Source of the DNA: Prochlorococcus marinus XMU1410
GTDB lineage: Bacteria > Cyanobacteriota > Cyanobacteriia > PCC-6307 > Cyanobiaceae
Reading direction: 5' to 3'
Length of the DNA: 64,000 bases
NCBI RefSeq assembly: GCF_017696085.1
Contig: NZ_JAAORH010000001.1
Location: 806,001-870,000 of the forward strand
The notes under the pieces are model-generated. The model had not been told where the DNA came from. It made no database searches and was given only the letters and a program-made list of their open reading frames with translations. Made by a program: the position numbers and the translations under genes. Below are positions 35,848-41,528 of the stretch, piece after piece (positions within the stretch are counted from its first letter, which is position 1; every line of letters starts with the position of its first letter).

Positions 35848-36432
35848 ATGAGCTTAAAAGTAGGCCAAGAAGCACCAGACTTTAGTGCTACAGCAGTATA
35901 TGATCAAGAGTTTAAGGAGATTACACTTTCAGGTCTAAGAGGTAAATGGGTTGTTCTATTCTTTTATCCACTAGATTTTACATTTGTATGTCCAACTGAA
36001 ATCACAGCATTTAGTGATAGATACCAAGATTTCTCGGCACTTAATACGGAAATACTTGGTGTATCAGTTGATAGCAAACACTGTCATTTGGCTTGGATAC
36101 AAACCCCAAGAAATGAAGGTGGTATAGGTGATATTAACTATCCGTTAGTTTCCGACTTAAAAAGAGAAATTTGCCAGGCTTACAATGTTCTAAATGATGA
36201 TGGGGAGGCTGATAGAGGTTTATTTCTTATCAATCCCGAAGGAGTAGTTATGCATACGACTGTTAACAAGGCTCCTGTAGGTAGAAATGTTGATGAAACG
36301 CTAAGGATTCTTCAAGGCTATCAATACGTTGCGGCAAACCCCGATGAAGTATGTCCAGCAAACTGGACACCCGGGGAGAAAACAATGTTAGAAGACCCAA
36401 AAGGTAGTAAGGAATATTTTTCTGCGCTATAG
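35848..36432 (+). CDS. 2-Cys peroxiredoxin
   Basis: Thioredoxin-dependent peroxidase that reduces hydrogen peroxide and organic peroxides. It has 194 residues. The peroxidatic cysteine is Cys48 in FTFVCPTE and the resolving cysteine is Cys169 in EVCPANW, so it is a typical 2-Cys enzyme that acts as a dimer. The GGIGD motif that marks overoxidation-sensitive forms is present at 91-95, though the C-terminal YF motif is reduced (KEYFSAL). ATG start. It is preceded by its own strong promoter and followed by a bidirectional hairpin at 36503. Confidence 0.96.
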
Positions 36433-36447
36433 GAGAATTAGAAACAT

Positions 36448-37200
36448 TTAAGTAAGTAATGAGTAGTAAATAATTATAAAAAAATAAAAAATAAATATAT
36501 TCAAAAAGGGGATAACATCCCCTTTTTGTGGTTTGGGCACGATCCAATCGCTCAAATTAGTTTTATATGATAAAAAGGACCATGTATAAAAAGAAATTTC
36601 TATTGCGACTAGGATAAAAAGATTAATTAAATTTAGGTCATTTAAGCCAAAATATCTATAAATATGAAACTGATCATCAACACTAATATTAATAATTTGA
36701 AGATGCCAAAGATAGAGAGAAATCAAAATAAAATTTACCAATATTATTTTTTTTAAAAGAAACCTAGATTTCTTAAAAATTAATAGGATAGAAATTAAAA
36801 ATATGAAAAAACATAACTGTGGAATATCCGTTTTTGGGACATTAATTCCTTCAAGAAATAAATTAATTATAAGATCAATATTTATATATATATAATCAGC
36901 TATTAAGAAAGAGAGAAATATTAAATTTATTGCTACTAAGAATAATAATCTTTTTCCTTTAATTATTTTTTTACTATGGATTTTATCCTTAGTAAAACTA
37001 TAATCTGTATAGTTTTTTAAAGAGTTTATATACACCAAAGATGGACATATTGCTCCGCTCAAATAGTAAAGGATTAAATAAAAGGAAATATCATTAATAT
37101 TGAGTGAATACAAATTAAACCATTGTTTTTGTACAAATGGAAGAATAAGTAAACATGAAAATGTAACTAATAACTTAGTTGTATTGTTTTTAATTATCAA
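36448..37200 (-). CDS. Multi-pass membrane protein of unknown function
   Basis: A 250-residue integral membrane protein with about seven hydrophobic segments, short polar loops and a conserved-looking C-terminal loop NLSDWIVPKPQKGDVIPF before the last helix. ATG start. It follows ftsH on the same strand after a 32-bp gap, so it is probably co-transcribed with it. Its last 80 bases carry the bidirectional terminator hairpin of the convergent peroxiredoxin gene, an overlap of coding and termination signals. I do not recognise the family; it is not a known transporter by the motifs visible. Confidence 0.75.
   Translation of the reverse strand: MIIKNNTTKLLVTFSCLLILPFVQKQWFNLYSLNINDISFYLILYYLSGAICPSLVYINSLKNYTDYSFTKDKIHSKKIIKGKRLLFLVAINLIFLSFLIADYIYINIDLIINLFLEGINVPKTDIPQLCFFIFLISILLIFKKSRFLLKKIILVNFILISLYLWHLQIINISVDDQFHIYRYFGLNDLNLINLFILVAIEISFYTWSFLSYKTNLSDWIVPKPQKGDVIPFLNIFIFYFFIIIYYSLLT
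36503..36527. terminator. Bidirectional rho-independent terminator
   Basis: A perfect 11-bp stem pairs AAAAAGGGGAT with ATCCCCTTTTT around the 3-nt loop AAC. On the plus strand it lies 71 bp after the peroxiredoxin stop and the T-run is the end of the stem. It lies inside the 3' coding part of the convergent membrane protein gene, where it encodes QKGDVIPF. Confidence 0.82.
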
Positions 37201-37232: not shown

Positions 37233-39050
37233 TCAAACTTTCAACAATTTAGAAGTTGTTAATTTAAAAACTTTTTTATCTATAGTTTCTTGATTTAAAA
37301 GTATATCAACTAATTTATCTAGTAAGACTCTATTTTTTTTCAATATTTTTATTGAATTATTTAATGAAATTTTAGAAATATTTATGATTTCATTATCTAT
37401 TCTAGAACTGGTATTTTCTGCTATGAGAGGCTTTCTTCTAAATAATCCATCTCCTAAATACATTTCATTATTATCAGAATCCATTGAAATTGGACCAATA
37501 ATTGAAAATCCATATTTTGTTACCATTTCCCTTACGATTTTTGTCGCATAAGAGATATCATTTATGGAGCATTGTGTAATTTCACCTTCACCAAAAACAA
37601 TCGTTTCTGCTGCTCTTCCAGCTAGAGCAATTTCAATTTTTGAAAATAACAATTTTTTTGAAATCAATCCACTAGAAATTACATCTTCGTCAGGGCATAT
37701 TTTTGTATATCCTCCTATAGATCCAGATCTAGGTAAAATCGTAATTTTATCAACTGATTCAATTCCATTTCTCACAGCAGATACAATTGCTCTACCTACT
37801 TCGTTATAAGCAATAATTTTTTTCATATTAGGAGAAGTTATTAATGAGCTTCTCAGGCCAATGGTAATTTTATCAAGAGCATTTTCTATATGAAGATCAT
37901 TGATTAATTTAGATTCATCTCTAGCACAGTGAATAGCACTCTCGTTCATCAAGTTTGCAAGATCTGCTCCCGAAAATCCGACTGTTCTAGAAGCCCAATA
38001 TCCTAAGTCAACCTCACTTGAAAGTGGTTTGGAAAGTGAGTGAACTGAAAGAATTTTTTTTCTTCCATCTAAATCTGGAAGCATTACTTCAATTTTCCTA
38101 TCAAATCTACCTGGTCTTAATAATGCTGCATCCAAAATATCTGGTCTATTTGTTGCTGCTAAAACAATAATCCCAGAATTATCAGCAAAACCATCTAATT
38201 CAGTTAAAAGCTGATTAAGGGTTTGTTCTCTTTCATCATTTCCACCTCCGATCCCAGACCCTCTTTGCCTACCAATGGAATCAATTTCATCAATAAAAAT
38301 TATACAAGGAGATTTTTCCTTAGCCTTAGAGAACAGATCACGAACCCGGCTTGCTCCAACACCAACAAAAAGTTCTACAAACTCTGAAGCCGATATTGAG
38401 AGAAAAGGTACTCCTGATTCACCAGCAATTGCTTTAGCTAATAATGTTTTTCCTGTCCCTGGGGGGCCTATTAGAAGAACTCCCTTAGGAACTTTCGCTC
38501 CAAGATTTTCAAATTTCTTTGGTTCTTTCAAAAATGTTATTACCTCTTTTAATTCCTCTGCGGCTTCAGGGACGCCAGCTACATCATCGAATCTCGTTTC
38601 TACATCATCAATAGTTACAAATTTAGATTGATTTTTGGTAAAACCAAAAGCTCTGGAGGCCAATTTTGATGTACTCCTCAAGATTAAGACTATAGCTAAT
38701 ATGAAAATTAGGAAAAGACTTATTGAAGAGAATGAATTAGCAGCTGAGGCTTCTTTTCTACTATTGTTAATAGTTAGGTCTACCTTATTTTCAGTAGCCT
38801 TTTCTAGGATTAATTGATCGTTGTAAAGGATAGGTATTTTAAATTTATCTCCATTTTTATACAGAACATCAATTTCTCTCTGCCTTGGATAGAAAAATAT
38901 TGATTCTATTTTCCCCGTCTCTATATCTTCTAGAAGATCCGAATAACTTGATTTAGAATCTGAATATGAGAATTTTGATCTAAACACTAATCTATATAAG
39001 TGATTAATAAAGCATATATGCTTATTTAAAAAATTGACGTATATAAACAA
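37233..39050 (-). CDS. FtsH-like AAA+ protein lacking the protease zinc motif
   Basis: A 605-residue FtsH homolog. The N-terminal region has a weak first hydrophobic segment and a second, clear helix (about 108-125). The AAA+ core is intact: Walker A GPPGTGKT at 195-202, Walker B IIFIDEID at 250-257, and the second region of homology [18 protein letters not shown] at 301-318. In the peptidase domain the HExxH zinc site is replaced by Asn416-Glu417-Val-Gly-Arg420 (NEVGR), so both zinc histidines are lost; a downstream Asp in SINDI remains. It is therefore probably an unfoldase or regulatory subunit, like plant FtsHi proteins, perhaps in hetero-complexes with active FtsH. ATG start; divergent from rpmF. 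Confidence 0.9.
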
Positions 39051-39118: not shown

Positions 39119-39292
39119 ATGGCTGTACCAAAGAAGAAAAAATCAAAGAGCAAAAGGAACCAAAGGCACGCTGTTTGGAAAGGAAAAGCAGCAATAGCAG
39201 CTCAAAAAGCTATATCTTTAGGTAAATCAGTTTTAACTGGGAAAGCTCAAGGATTTGTTTATCCTATTGAGGAAGAAGAAGAAGAAGAGTAG
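39119..39292 (+). CDS. rpmF: 50S ribosomal protein L32
   Basis: A 57-residue protein starting [20 protein letters not shown], the typical L32 N-terminus, and ending in a run of seven glutamates. Cyanobacterial L32 lacks the zinc cysteines seen in some bacteria, as here. ATG at 39119, TAG at 39290-39292. It is divergent from the FtsH homolog over 68 bp and converges on the Ycf20 gene, 3 bp away. Confidence 0.93.
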
Positions 39293-40545: not shown

Positions 40546-40893
40546 ATGAAATCATGGACATGTATAGAAAATTGTGGAGCTTGTTGTAAATTCGACTTGA
40601 ACGAAAGAAGCGATTTGGCTAACAAACTTAACAAAGAAGATATAGCTTTGATAAATTCGATGACAGATAAAGACGGTTGGTGTAAAAACCTGGACAGAGA
40701 AAATAAAAAATGCTTAATTTATGAAACCAGACCACATTTTTGCAGGGTAAGTGAATTTTCAACTTCATTTAAAGGATATTTGAAATCTGGTGATAAATTT
40801 TTAATAGATTGCTGCAAACAACATATTTCATCAAATTATGGATGCCAAAGTAAAGAGATGAAAACTTTTAGAATTGCTGTTTCAGGAAAATGA
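40546..40893 (+). CDS. YkgJ-type cysteine-cluster protein
   Basis: A 115-residue protein of the YkgJ/CxxCxxCC family, thought to bind zinc or an Fe-S cluster. The N-terminus has CIENCGACC and the middle reads KKCLIYETRPHFCR with conserved Arg-Pro; four more cysteines follow, including DCCKQ. No signal peptide. Its stop overlaps the start of the first GDT1 half (ATGA), so the three genes 40546-41528 are one operon. The link with Mn/Ca transporters is suggestive of metal handling but is inference. Confidence 0.87.
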   Translation: MKSWTCIENCGACCKFDLNERSDLANKLNKEDIALINSMTDKDGWCKNLDRENKKCLIYETRPHFCRVSEFSTSFKGYLKSGDKFLIDCCKQHISSNYGCQSKEMKTFRIAVSGK

Positions 40894-41216
40894 ATAATAA
40901 ATTAGAAAAAAAAGAAAACAATCTAGAAAAAAGTTTTTTTTCAATATTTATAACGACTTTTACAACAATTTTTATTGCTGAACTTGGCGATAAAACTCAG
41001 ATAGCCACATTAATGCTTTCTGCTGAATCAGGCAGGCCAATAATTGTTTTTCTTGGAAGTTCTCTAGCATTAATAAGCTCTAGCATAGTAGGAGTTCTAA
41101 TTGGTAAATGGGTATCAAAAAAAATATCTCCTAGCAAATTTGCTTTATCTACTGGTACTTTAATGATATTGGTAAGTATATTTTTAGCTTATGAAACATT
41201 CAAAAATTATTTATAA
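40890..41216 (+). CDS. GDT1/UPF0016 cation exporter, half 1
   Basis: A 108-residue integral membrane protein with three predicted helices and the signature ELGDKTQIATLML (ExGDKT). The usual GDT1/Mnx/TMEM165 transporter has two such repeats in one chain and moves Mn2+ or Ca2+. Here only one is present. The next gene begins 1 bp after the stop and encodes the second half, so the functional unit is probably a heterodimer. ATG start, coupled to the YkgJ gene by an ATGA overlap. Confidence 0.88.
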   Translation: MNNKLEKKENNLEKSFFSIFITTFTTIFIAELGDKTQIATLMLSAESGRPIIVFLGSSLALISSSIVGVLIGKWVSKKISPSKFALSTGTLMILVSIFLAYETFKNYL

Positions 41217-41528
41217 ATGGTTTTAAGTTTATTACTATCAACATTTCTAACCGTTTTCATAGCTGAATTAGGTGACAAAACTCAACTAGCTACTTTAACT
41301 ATAAGTGGCACTTCAAATAAACCATTAGCAGTTTTTCTAGGATCTTCTTCAGCACTTGTTTTTGCAAGTTTTCTAGGAGCTTTAACAGGTGGTTCTATTT
41401 CAAGTTTTTTACCCGAAGTAGTTCTTAAGTCAATAGCCTCCATAACATTTTTCATCATTGGTATAAGGCTTTTTATCAACTCTTTTACCATCGAACAAGA
41501 AGAAAAAGAAGAGAAAGAAAATAATTAG
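41217..41528 (+). CDS. GDT1/UPF0016 cation exporter, half 2
   Basis: A 103-residue partner of the preceding gene. Its signature is ELGDKTQLATLTIS, with three predicted helices. The two halves have the same topology and clearly share origin, but their loops have diverged, as expected for separate roles in one pore. ATG directly after the TAA of half 1. Split pairs of this kind are known in cyanobacteria as hemi-manganese exchangers (established for other species, not tested here). Confidence 0.88.
   Translation: MVLSLLLSTFLTVFIAELGDKTQLATLTISGTSNKPLAVFLGSSSALVFASFLGALTGGSISSFLPEVVLKSIASITFFIIGIRLFINSFTIEQEEKEEKENN

Follow-up and report, generated by a model that had tools for sequence, protein, structure and literature searches.

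An FtsH1-type protein of Prochlorococcus that has lost its protease zinc site, apparently once, and may persist as a non-cutting motor subunit

In Prochlorococcus, an abundant photosynthetic bacterium of the ocean, one of the four FtsH genes has kept the ATPase motor and lost the zinc-binding residues of the protease. The gene lies in the 64,000-nucleotide stretch of P. marinus XMU1410 DNA analysed here (the window), and its sequence relationships mark it as the FtsH1 of Prochlorococcus, assigned to the slr1390 type by elimination. We consider it somewhat probable (roughly 0.55) that the zinc site of this FtsH1 copy was lost once and that the protein has been kept as a non-cutting motor beside an active FtsH3.

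Results

The open reading frame at 37233-39050 on the minus strand, translated into 605 amino acids from a TTG codon, carries NEVGR at residues 416-420 in place of HExxH. On re-reading of the sequence, the codons from 37805 to 37791 are AAC GAA GTA GGT AGA; the preliminary description had correctly reported AAC and AGA for the two histidines, as well as the retained downstream Asp (in NDIS) and a complete AAA+ half, in which Walker A, Walker B, LLRPGRFDR and the pore FVG are all found (Table 1). The TTG start that it had assumed is probably wrong, the GTG at 38987 being the more likely true start: in 73 of the 78 same-genus ortholog rows listed, a stop falls within the stretch that aligns with the TTG-started protein (none in the other 5), and the GTG-started segment (573-584 aa) is free of stops in all 73 same-genus loci, so that the ortholog stops lie upstream of it. 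In the inspected ortholog rows, a stop directly precedes this GTG, which is the sole start codon between that stop and the SYSDLL stretch. With the GTG start, the motif is numbered N395-E-V-G-R399.

In a form shortened to 574 residues, the protein matches the Pfam profiles AAA (158.5 bits), Peptidase_M41 (151.9 bits) and FtsH_ext (26.3 bits, covering profile positions 30-99 of 103 only). The predicted structure of 574 residues, for which the alignment used 35 of the 80 loci from a generic FtsH pattern scan (few of the 80 being orthologs) that enter none of the counts below, has a mean pLDDT of 80.5, with low values at 99-113, 232-236 and 493-509, and preserves the M41 helices; among its PDB fold matches, ranks 1-3 are FtsH, and FtsHi motor chains stand at ranks 4 (a Ycf2-FtsHi chain) and 12, as is expected for any FtsH. 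With the AAA module and the M41 fold present and the HExxH zinc site absent, the window protein is, as far as its sequence tells, an FtsH homologue and no FtsH protease. The NCBIfam equivalog model, scoring 647 bits at a cut-off of 600, names it an ATP-dependent zinc metalloprotease, an annotation that does not fit a site-less protein and is corrected here. Four M41 genes are contained in the host genome (1.63 Mb), and the three others all have HE.GH.

Table 1 Features of the ftsH1-type locus in the window (aa, amino acids)
Feature	Position	Strand	Remarks
ftsH1-type pseudoprotease CDS, most likely extent	37233..38987	-	GTG start, 584 aa + stop; start placed from orthologs
TTG extension, probably untranslated	38988..39050	-	stops in 73/78 ortholog rows listed
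FtsH_ext-like N-terminal domain, without preceding hydrophobic segment	38772..38948	-	PF06480, model
Single transmembrane segment, then basic residues	38670..38732	-	hydropathy peak
AAA ATPase core	38085..38480	-	motifs + Pfam
Walker A	38445-38468	-	GPPGTGKT, residue 195 of TTG-started ORF
Pore FVG	38361-38369	-	residue 228 of TTG-started ORF
Walker B	38280-38297	-	FIDEID, residue 252 of TTG-started ORF
LLRPGRFDR	38097-38123	-	residue 310 of TTG-started ORF
M41 domain, zinc site lost	37266..37838	-	Pfam; fold kept in model
NEVGR at HExxH position	37791..37805	-	73/73 same-genus orthologs NE[V/A/G]GR
Asp at what we take to be the third zinc-ligand position	37557..37559	-	present here; N/E/H in 7/73 same-genus rows
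Presumably rpmF (L32), from its sequence; divergent neighbour marking the locus	39119..39292	+	beside ftsH in 32/32 family loci tested
250-aa hydrophobic ORF, downstream	36448..37200	-	no Pfam match; same genus only

Among the 73 counted orthologs of the same genus, the motif is NEVGR in 71, NEAGR in 1 and NEGGR in 1, and N395, E396, G398 and R399 are invariant, as are 73 of the 207 M41 sites overall; a further ortholog outside this count, in genome G399, has NEIGR. The preliminary description had asked whether NEVGR is conserved in one orthologous group, which it is, and intact HExxH in close relatives, which it had named as refuting its reading, is absent from all 73. In a search of the DNA, the pattern NE.GR was found in 192 of the 266 same-genus genomes, and in 80 of the 87 that are at least 90% complete, with 0 matches for a backwards-pattern control, by which the idea that NEVGR is a sequencing error or a mutation private to a single strain is already refuted, its probability being practically nil. 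Of the remaining seven of the 87, one is G399, whose NEIGR escaped a pattern that did not admit Ile codons, and the other six gave no full-length match. Gene loss in these six and in two other genomes without a full-length ftsH1 match (G117 and G110) was considered and set aside as not shown: the neighbour rpmF is likewise unmatched in all eight, so that the locus is probably unassembled. The rpmF search was positive in G399 and G108, and the neighbouring HAD gene has no match in G117 and a weak match elsewhere in G110. In G510 (C12:38547-40023), an FtsH4-type gene is seemingly split across two overlapping matches.

The family-wide count covers 128 of 341 genomes and 32 of 37 genera; genera g31, g34 and g37 were left out, a full-length match is absent in g11 and g17, g35 is represented by 7 of its 22 genomes, and the count omits loci that lack the TQ signature, by which the group is told from its paralogues, as well as loci added later, including that of G399. 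The site is absent in 87 genomes of five genera and kept as HE[VI]GH in 41 genomes of 27 genera, and no genus is mixed. The site-less forms are NE[VAG]GR (g1, 73), QIIGK (g35, 7) and RNASK (g4), with NEAGK, HEIGK, NEIGR and YEIGR in g9 and HEAGR and NEVGK in g25. We take the site-less genomes to include those of MED4, MIT9515, MIT9312 and MIT9215 (g1), NATL2A (g35), SS120 (g9) and MIT9211 (g25), and a g18 genome with intact HEIGH to be that of MIT9313. The second His is replaced by Lys or Arg in all 87 site-less rows and the first survives in two, which suggests that the second was lost before the first; the rows of g35 and g4 have lost the Glu, which 11 of the 14 site-less rows in the tree described below retain, and Asp is kept in 66 of the 73 same-genus rows.

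In an FtsH tree of 76 rows from which the zinc columns had been removed, the 14 site-less rows form one clade (SH-aLRT 98), nested in the family clade (SH-aLRT 100) and with intact rows as its nearest sisters, this being a 'quick' tree with SH-aLRT as its sole support measure and a warning of long branches meeting. The same 14 genomes are united, with one change, in an independent ChlH tree of 28 genomes (SH-aLRT 94, a value below the starred level, in a tree likewise 'quick' and with SH-aLRT only), for which G178 and G113 gave no match at the cut-off and in which G117 and G110 were included and scored as neither lost nor intact. As both trees group the 14 site-less rows, one loss of the zinc site in their common ancestor apparently fits. 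A long-branch artefact behind the site-less clade was considered and set aside, the ChlH tree recovering the same clade. The most degenerate ortholog read, L112 of genome G103, has RNASK, the Walker A flank GSPGTGKTH and the arginine finger AGRFDK, and G103 has a branch length of 2.71 in the FtsH tree; elsewhere in the alignment, the AAA motifs are intact.

The FtsH tree places the window protein within the FtsH1-type rows of other cyanobacteria (SH-aLRT 99), apart from FtsH2, FtsH3 and FtsH4. These FtsH1 rows are best matches, and the slr1390 identity comes by elimination together with PMC6300248, the tree holding no Synechocystis sequence. In that paper, Bonisteel et al. 2018 describe the homology of picocyanobacterial FtsH 4 to Synechocystis FtsH 1 as less obvious than that of the others (PMC6300248); the MIT9313 FtsH 4 forward primer given there matches ortholog L283 exactly, which ties the name FtsH 4 to this ortholog group.

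A hydrophobic, signal-like stretch before SYS-LL, scored at a value of at least 1.5, is present in 15 of 17 FtsH1 rows outside the family, in 12/12 FtsH2 rows and in 12/12 FtsH3 rows, and in 2 of 52 family rows, one of them the extension of the window gene itself, which is probably not translated. As the 1.5 cut-off was picked after a stricter test had given little contrast, the difference from outside FtsH1 is less firm than the absence within the family, in which several Prochlorococcus frames open just a few codons before the domain. In this test, 7 family rows had an open frame of <15 aa, and L095 was dropped. With the stricter, 19-residue test, multiple peaks were seen in 7 of 17 rows from outside the family and in 14 of 53 rows from within it; in many of these 14, the peaks are neighbours belonging to one segment. 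The family orthologs thus seem to be without the N-terminal hydrophobic segment of FtsH1 and, since this holds for intact as well as site-less copies, the segment was probably lost before the zinc site.

Across 11 matched genomes, dN/dS has a median of 0.044 for AAA and 0.13 for M41, compared with 0.008 and 0.038, respectively, for FtsH2 of the same genomes (loci L002, L303-L306, L309, L311 and L319-L322), an imperfect comparison in that the median dS is 0.81 for FtsH2 versus 0.21 for the window gene. Relative to ChlH, the median rate of AAA is 2.21 in 13 site-less genomes versus 1.44 in 11 intact ones, and that of M41 is 6.49 versus 2.56. The low dN/dS and the relative rates indicate a motor still guarded and an M41 half that is relaxed but not free; with both domains faster than in intact lineages and dN/dS above that of FtsH2, relaxed constraint accounts for part of the pattern. 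The synonymous divergence of FtsH2 is itself about four times that of the window gene (37233-38987) in these 11 genomes, a pattern that exchange of FtsH2 alleles between lineages could produce.

Outside the family, rpmF stands beside FtsH1 in one of seven loci, L263, from a genome that we take to be S. elongatus. The downstream hydrophobic ORF adjoins ftsH in all seven same-genus loci and in none of the 25 other family loci tested; what the preliminary description called a large membrane protein of the operon is this ORF of 250 aa. This ORF is weakly conserved in more distant same-genus loci (38-46% in three). A peroxiredoxin gene is found at 35848-36432, near the pseudoprotease locus of the window. 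Within the fetched flanks (about 1.5-2 kb), peroxiredoxin occurs at 15 of 16 site-less loci, the exception (L127) being cut short, and at none of 16 intact loci; this pattern, which may stem from a rearrangement that the loci share or from a link in function, is a third sign of common descent. At 40890-41216 and 41217-41528 lie two adjacent half-size genes for a GDT1 cation/proton antiporter.

Discussion

According to the reading that we prefer, the second zinc His would have been replaced by Lys or Arg in an ancestor shared by the HL, LLI and LLII/III-type strains, as we take these clades to be named, and the first His, in places also Glu and Asp, would have eroded later, an order that we infer from the pattern seen in the sequences and trees. 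The protein would have been retained as an ATPase-competent, non-cutting type-B subunit, alternating with intact FtsH3 in a hetero-hexamer in which both unfold and pull the substrate and FtsH3 alone cuts; the role of FtsH1/3, the control of transcription factors (e.g., Fur in Synechocystis), would then be kept with half the catalytic sites. That the genome also encodes an FtsH3-type protein with HEAGH counts for such a hetero-hexamer. In Synechocystis, FtsH1 and FtsH2 are type-B subunits with FtsH3 as their type-A partner, in heterocomplexes mostly of 1:1 composition, and PSII repair works when the type-B protease is inactivated and fails when the type-B ATPase is inactivated (PMC9020784); Fur is degraded by FtsH1/3 (PMC11287208). 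Several points count against the proposal, besides the partly relaxed constraint and the limits of the two trees given above: the dispensability result for type B concerns PSII repair (FtsH2/3) and not FtsH1/3, the absent N-terminal segment could alter insertion or pairing, an ocean-detection legend names FtsH1-3 only, without FtsH4, the window gene (PMC11262661), and the main MED4 transcripts named in PMC6300248 are isoforms 1-3. More tentatively, Lys or Arg at the second His position might stabilise the empty site in most streamlined Prochlorococcus, making FtsH1 a metal-free motor and FtsH1/3 a complex that cuts via FtsH3 alone. If true, this would be the natural counterpart of engineered type-B protease-dead complexes, and the indispensability of FtsH1 in cyanobacteria would rest on its ATPase, not on its protease.

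The main rival, on the whole unlikely, is a homo-hexamer serving as a membrane unfoldase or chaperone without proteolysis. The intact AAA motifs, the fold retained in the model and the purifying selection in AAA would suit it, and the loss of the N-terminal segment separates the family from FtsH1 elsewhere, but Synechocystis FtsH1 is a subunit of heterocomplexes (PMC9020784, PMC11287208), and the active FtsH3-type gene is still present. That the gene is decaying, the loss of the zinc site being a first step and the leftover constraint residual, appears quite improbable: although the rate of M41 relative to ChlH is about 2.5 times that in intact lineages, and in G103 RNASK comes with changes in both the Walker A flank and the second arginine finger, the frame is open through both domains in 73/73 same-genus copies, dN/dS is far below 1 in 11 of these, and genomes without a full-length match also have no rpmF match, pointing to unassembled loci. 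Persisting cleavage via another metal or other residues might be read from the Glu and Asp that most rows retain, and is very improbable, given that none of the 87 rows retains the second His and only two the first, and that g35 and g4 are without even the Glu.

In a natural clade without the FtsH1 cutting site, and with an intact relative in the genome assigned to MIT9313, the motor is separated from the protease, and the reason why FtsH1/3 is indispensable becomes testable. MIT9313 is a chlorophyll b strain with, provided that this genome is correctly assigned, an intact ortholog, in which case FtsHi and chlorophyll b are not linked. For Synechocystis, the indispensability of FtsH1/3 is the main unanswered question named in a 2024 review (PMC11287208), and the window gene is listed as Prochlorococcus FtsH4 beside Synechocystis FtsH1 with the function 'cell viability' (PMC11262661). 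In the portions of the literature covered by our search, we did not find the extent of the loss across the clade, its single origin, the assignment of the inactive protein to FtsH1 or the missing N-terminal segment; Shao et al. 2018, on FtsH phylogeny, could contain some of them.

The protein is worth comparing with other systems in which a protease subunit has no catalytic site. Plant FtsHi1, 2, 4 and 5, acting with FtsH12 and Ycf2, have like the window protein kept AAA and lost HExxH, a likeness of working kind that includes the fold matches to Ycf2-FtsHi chains; the origin is probably separate. For the M41 half, the score is 120 bits with bacterial FtsH versus 39 (FTSHI2) and 31 (FTSHI1) with solved plant structures, which suggests a loss independent of plant FtsHi, the FtsH tree itself holding no plant sequences. 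The preliminary description of an FtsHi-type pseudoprotease in a free-living cyanobacterium stands as regards conservation (73/73). Kinship with plant FtsHi is not supported, the scores and the grouping with cyanobacterial FtsH1 speaking against it, and an import role as in plant FtsHi finds no support here. With cyanobacterial FtsH1 (slr1390 type, the partner of FtsH3), the window protein shares its tree grouping and, with L263 but not with six other outside loci, the rpmF synteny; it differs in that the zinc site is lost in five genera of the family and that the N-terminal hydrophobic segment of FtsH1 elsewhere is missing in nearly all family rows tested.

The genome that we take to be that of SS120 has NEAGK at the motif position. 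Its gene is probably the FtsHi that Mishra et al. 2019 reported for this one strain, with none in the chlorophyll a cyanobacteria examined, and commented on in connection with chlorophyll b (PMC6460958), a case restated in a 2021 review (PMC8197885); here, the loss extends across the clade. The engineered type-B FtsH with a dead protease (Zhang 2010 and Yu 2013, per PMC9020784) has, as is proposed here for Prochlorococcus, a non-cutting type-B subunit beside an active type-A one. That arrangement is made in the laboratory and belongs to the PSII-repair complex. In the ClpP complex of cyanobacteria and plastids, ClpR is similarly kept as a non-catalytic subunit beside active paralogues, differing in that it belongs to a serine protease ring of unrelated fold.
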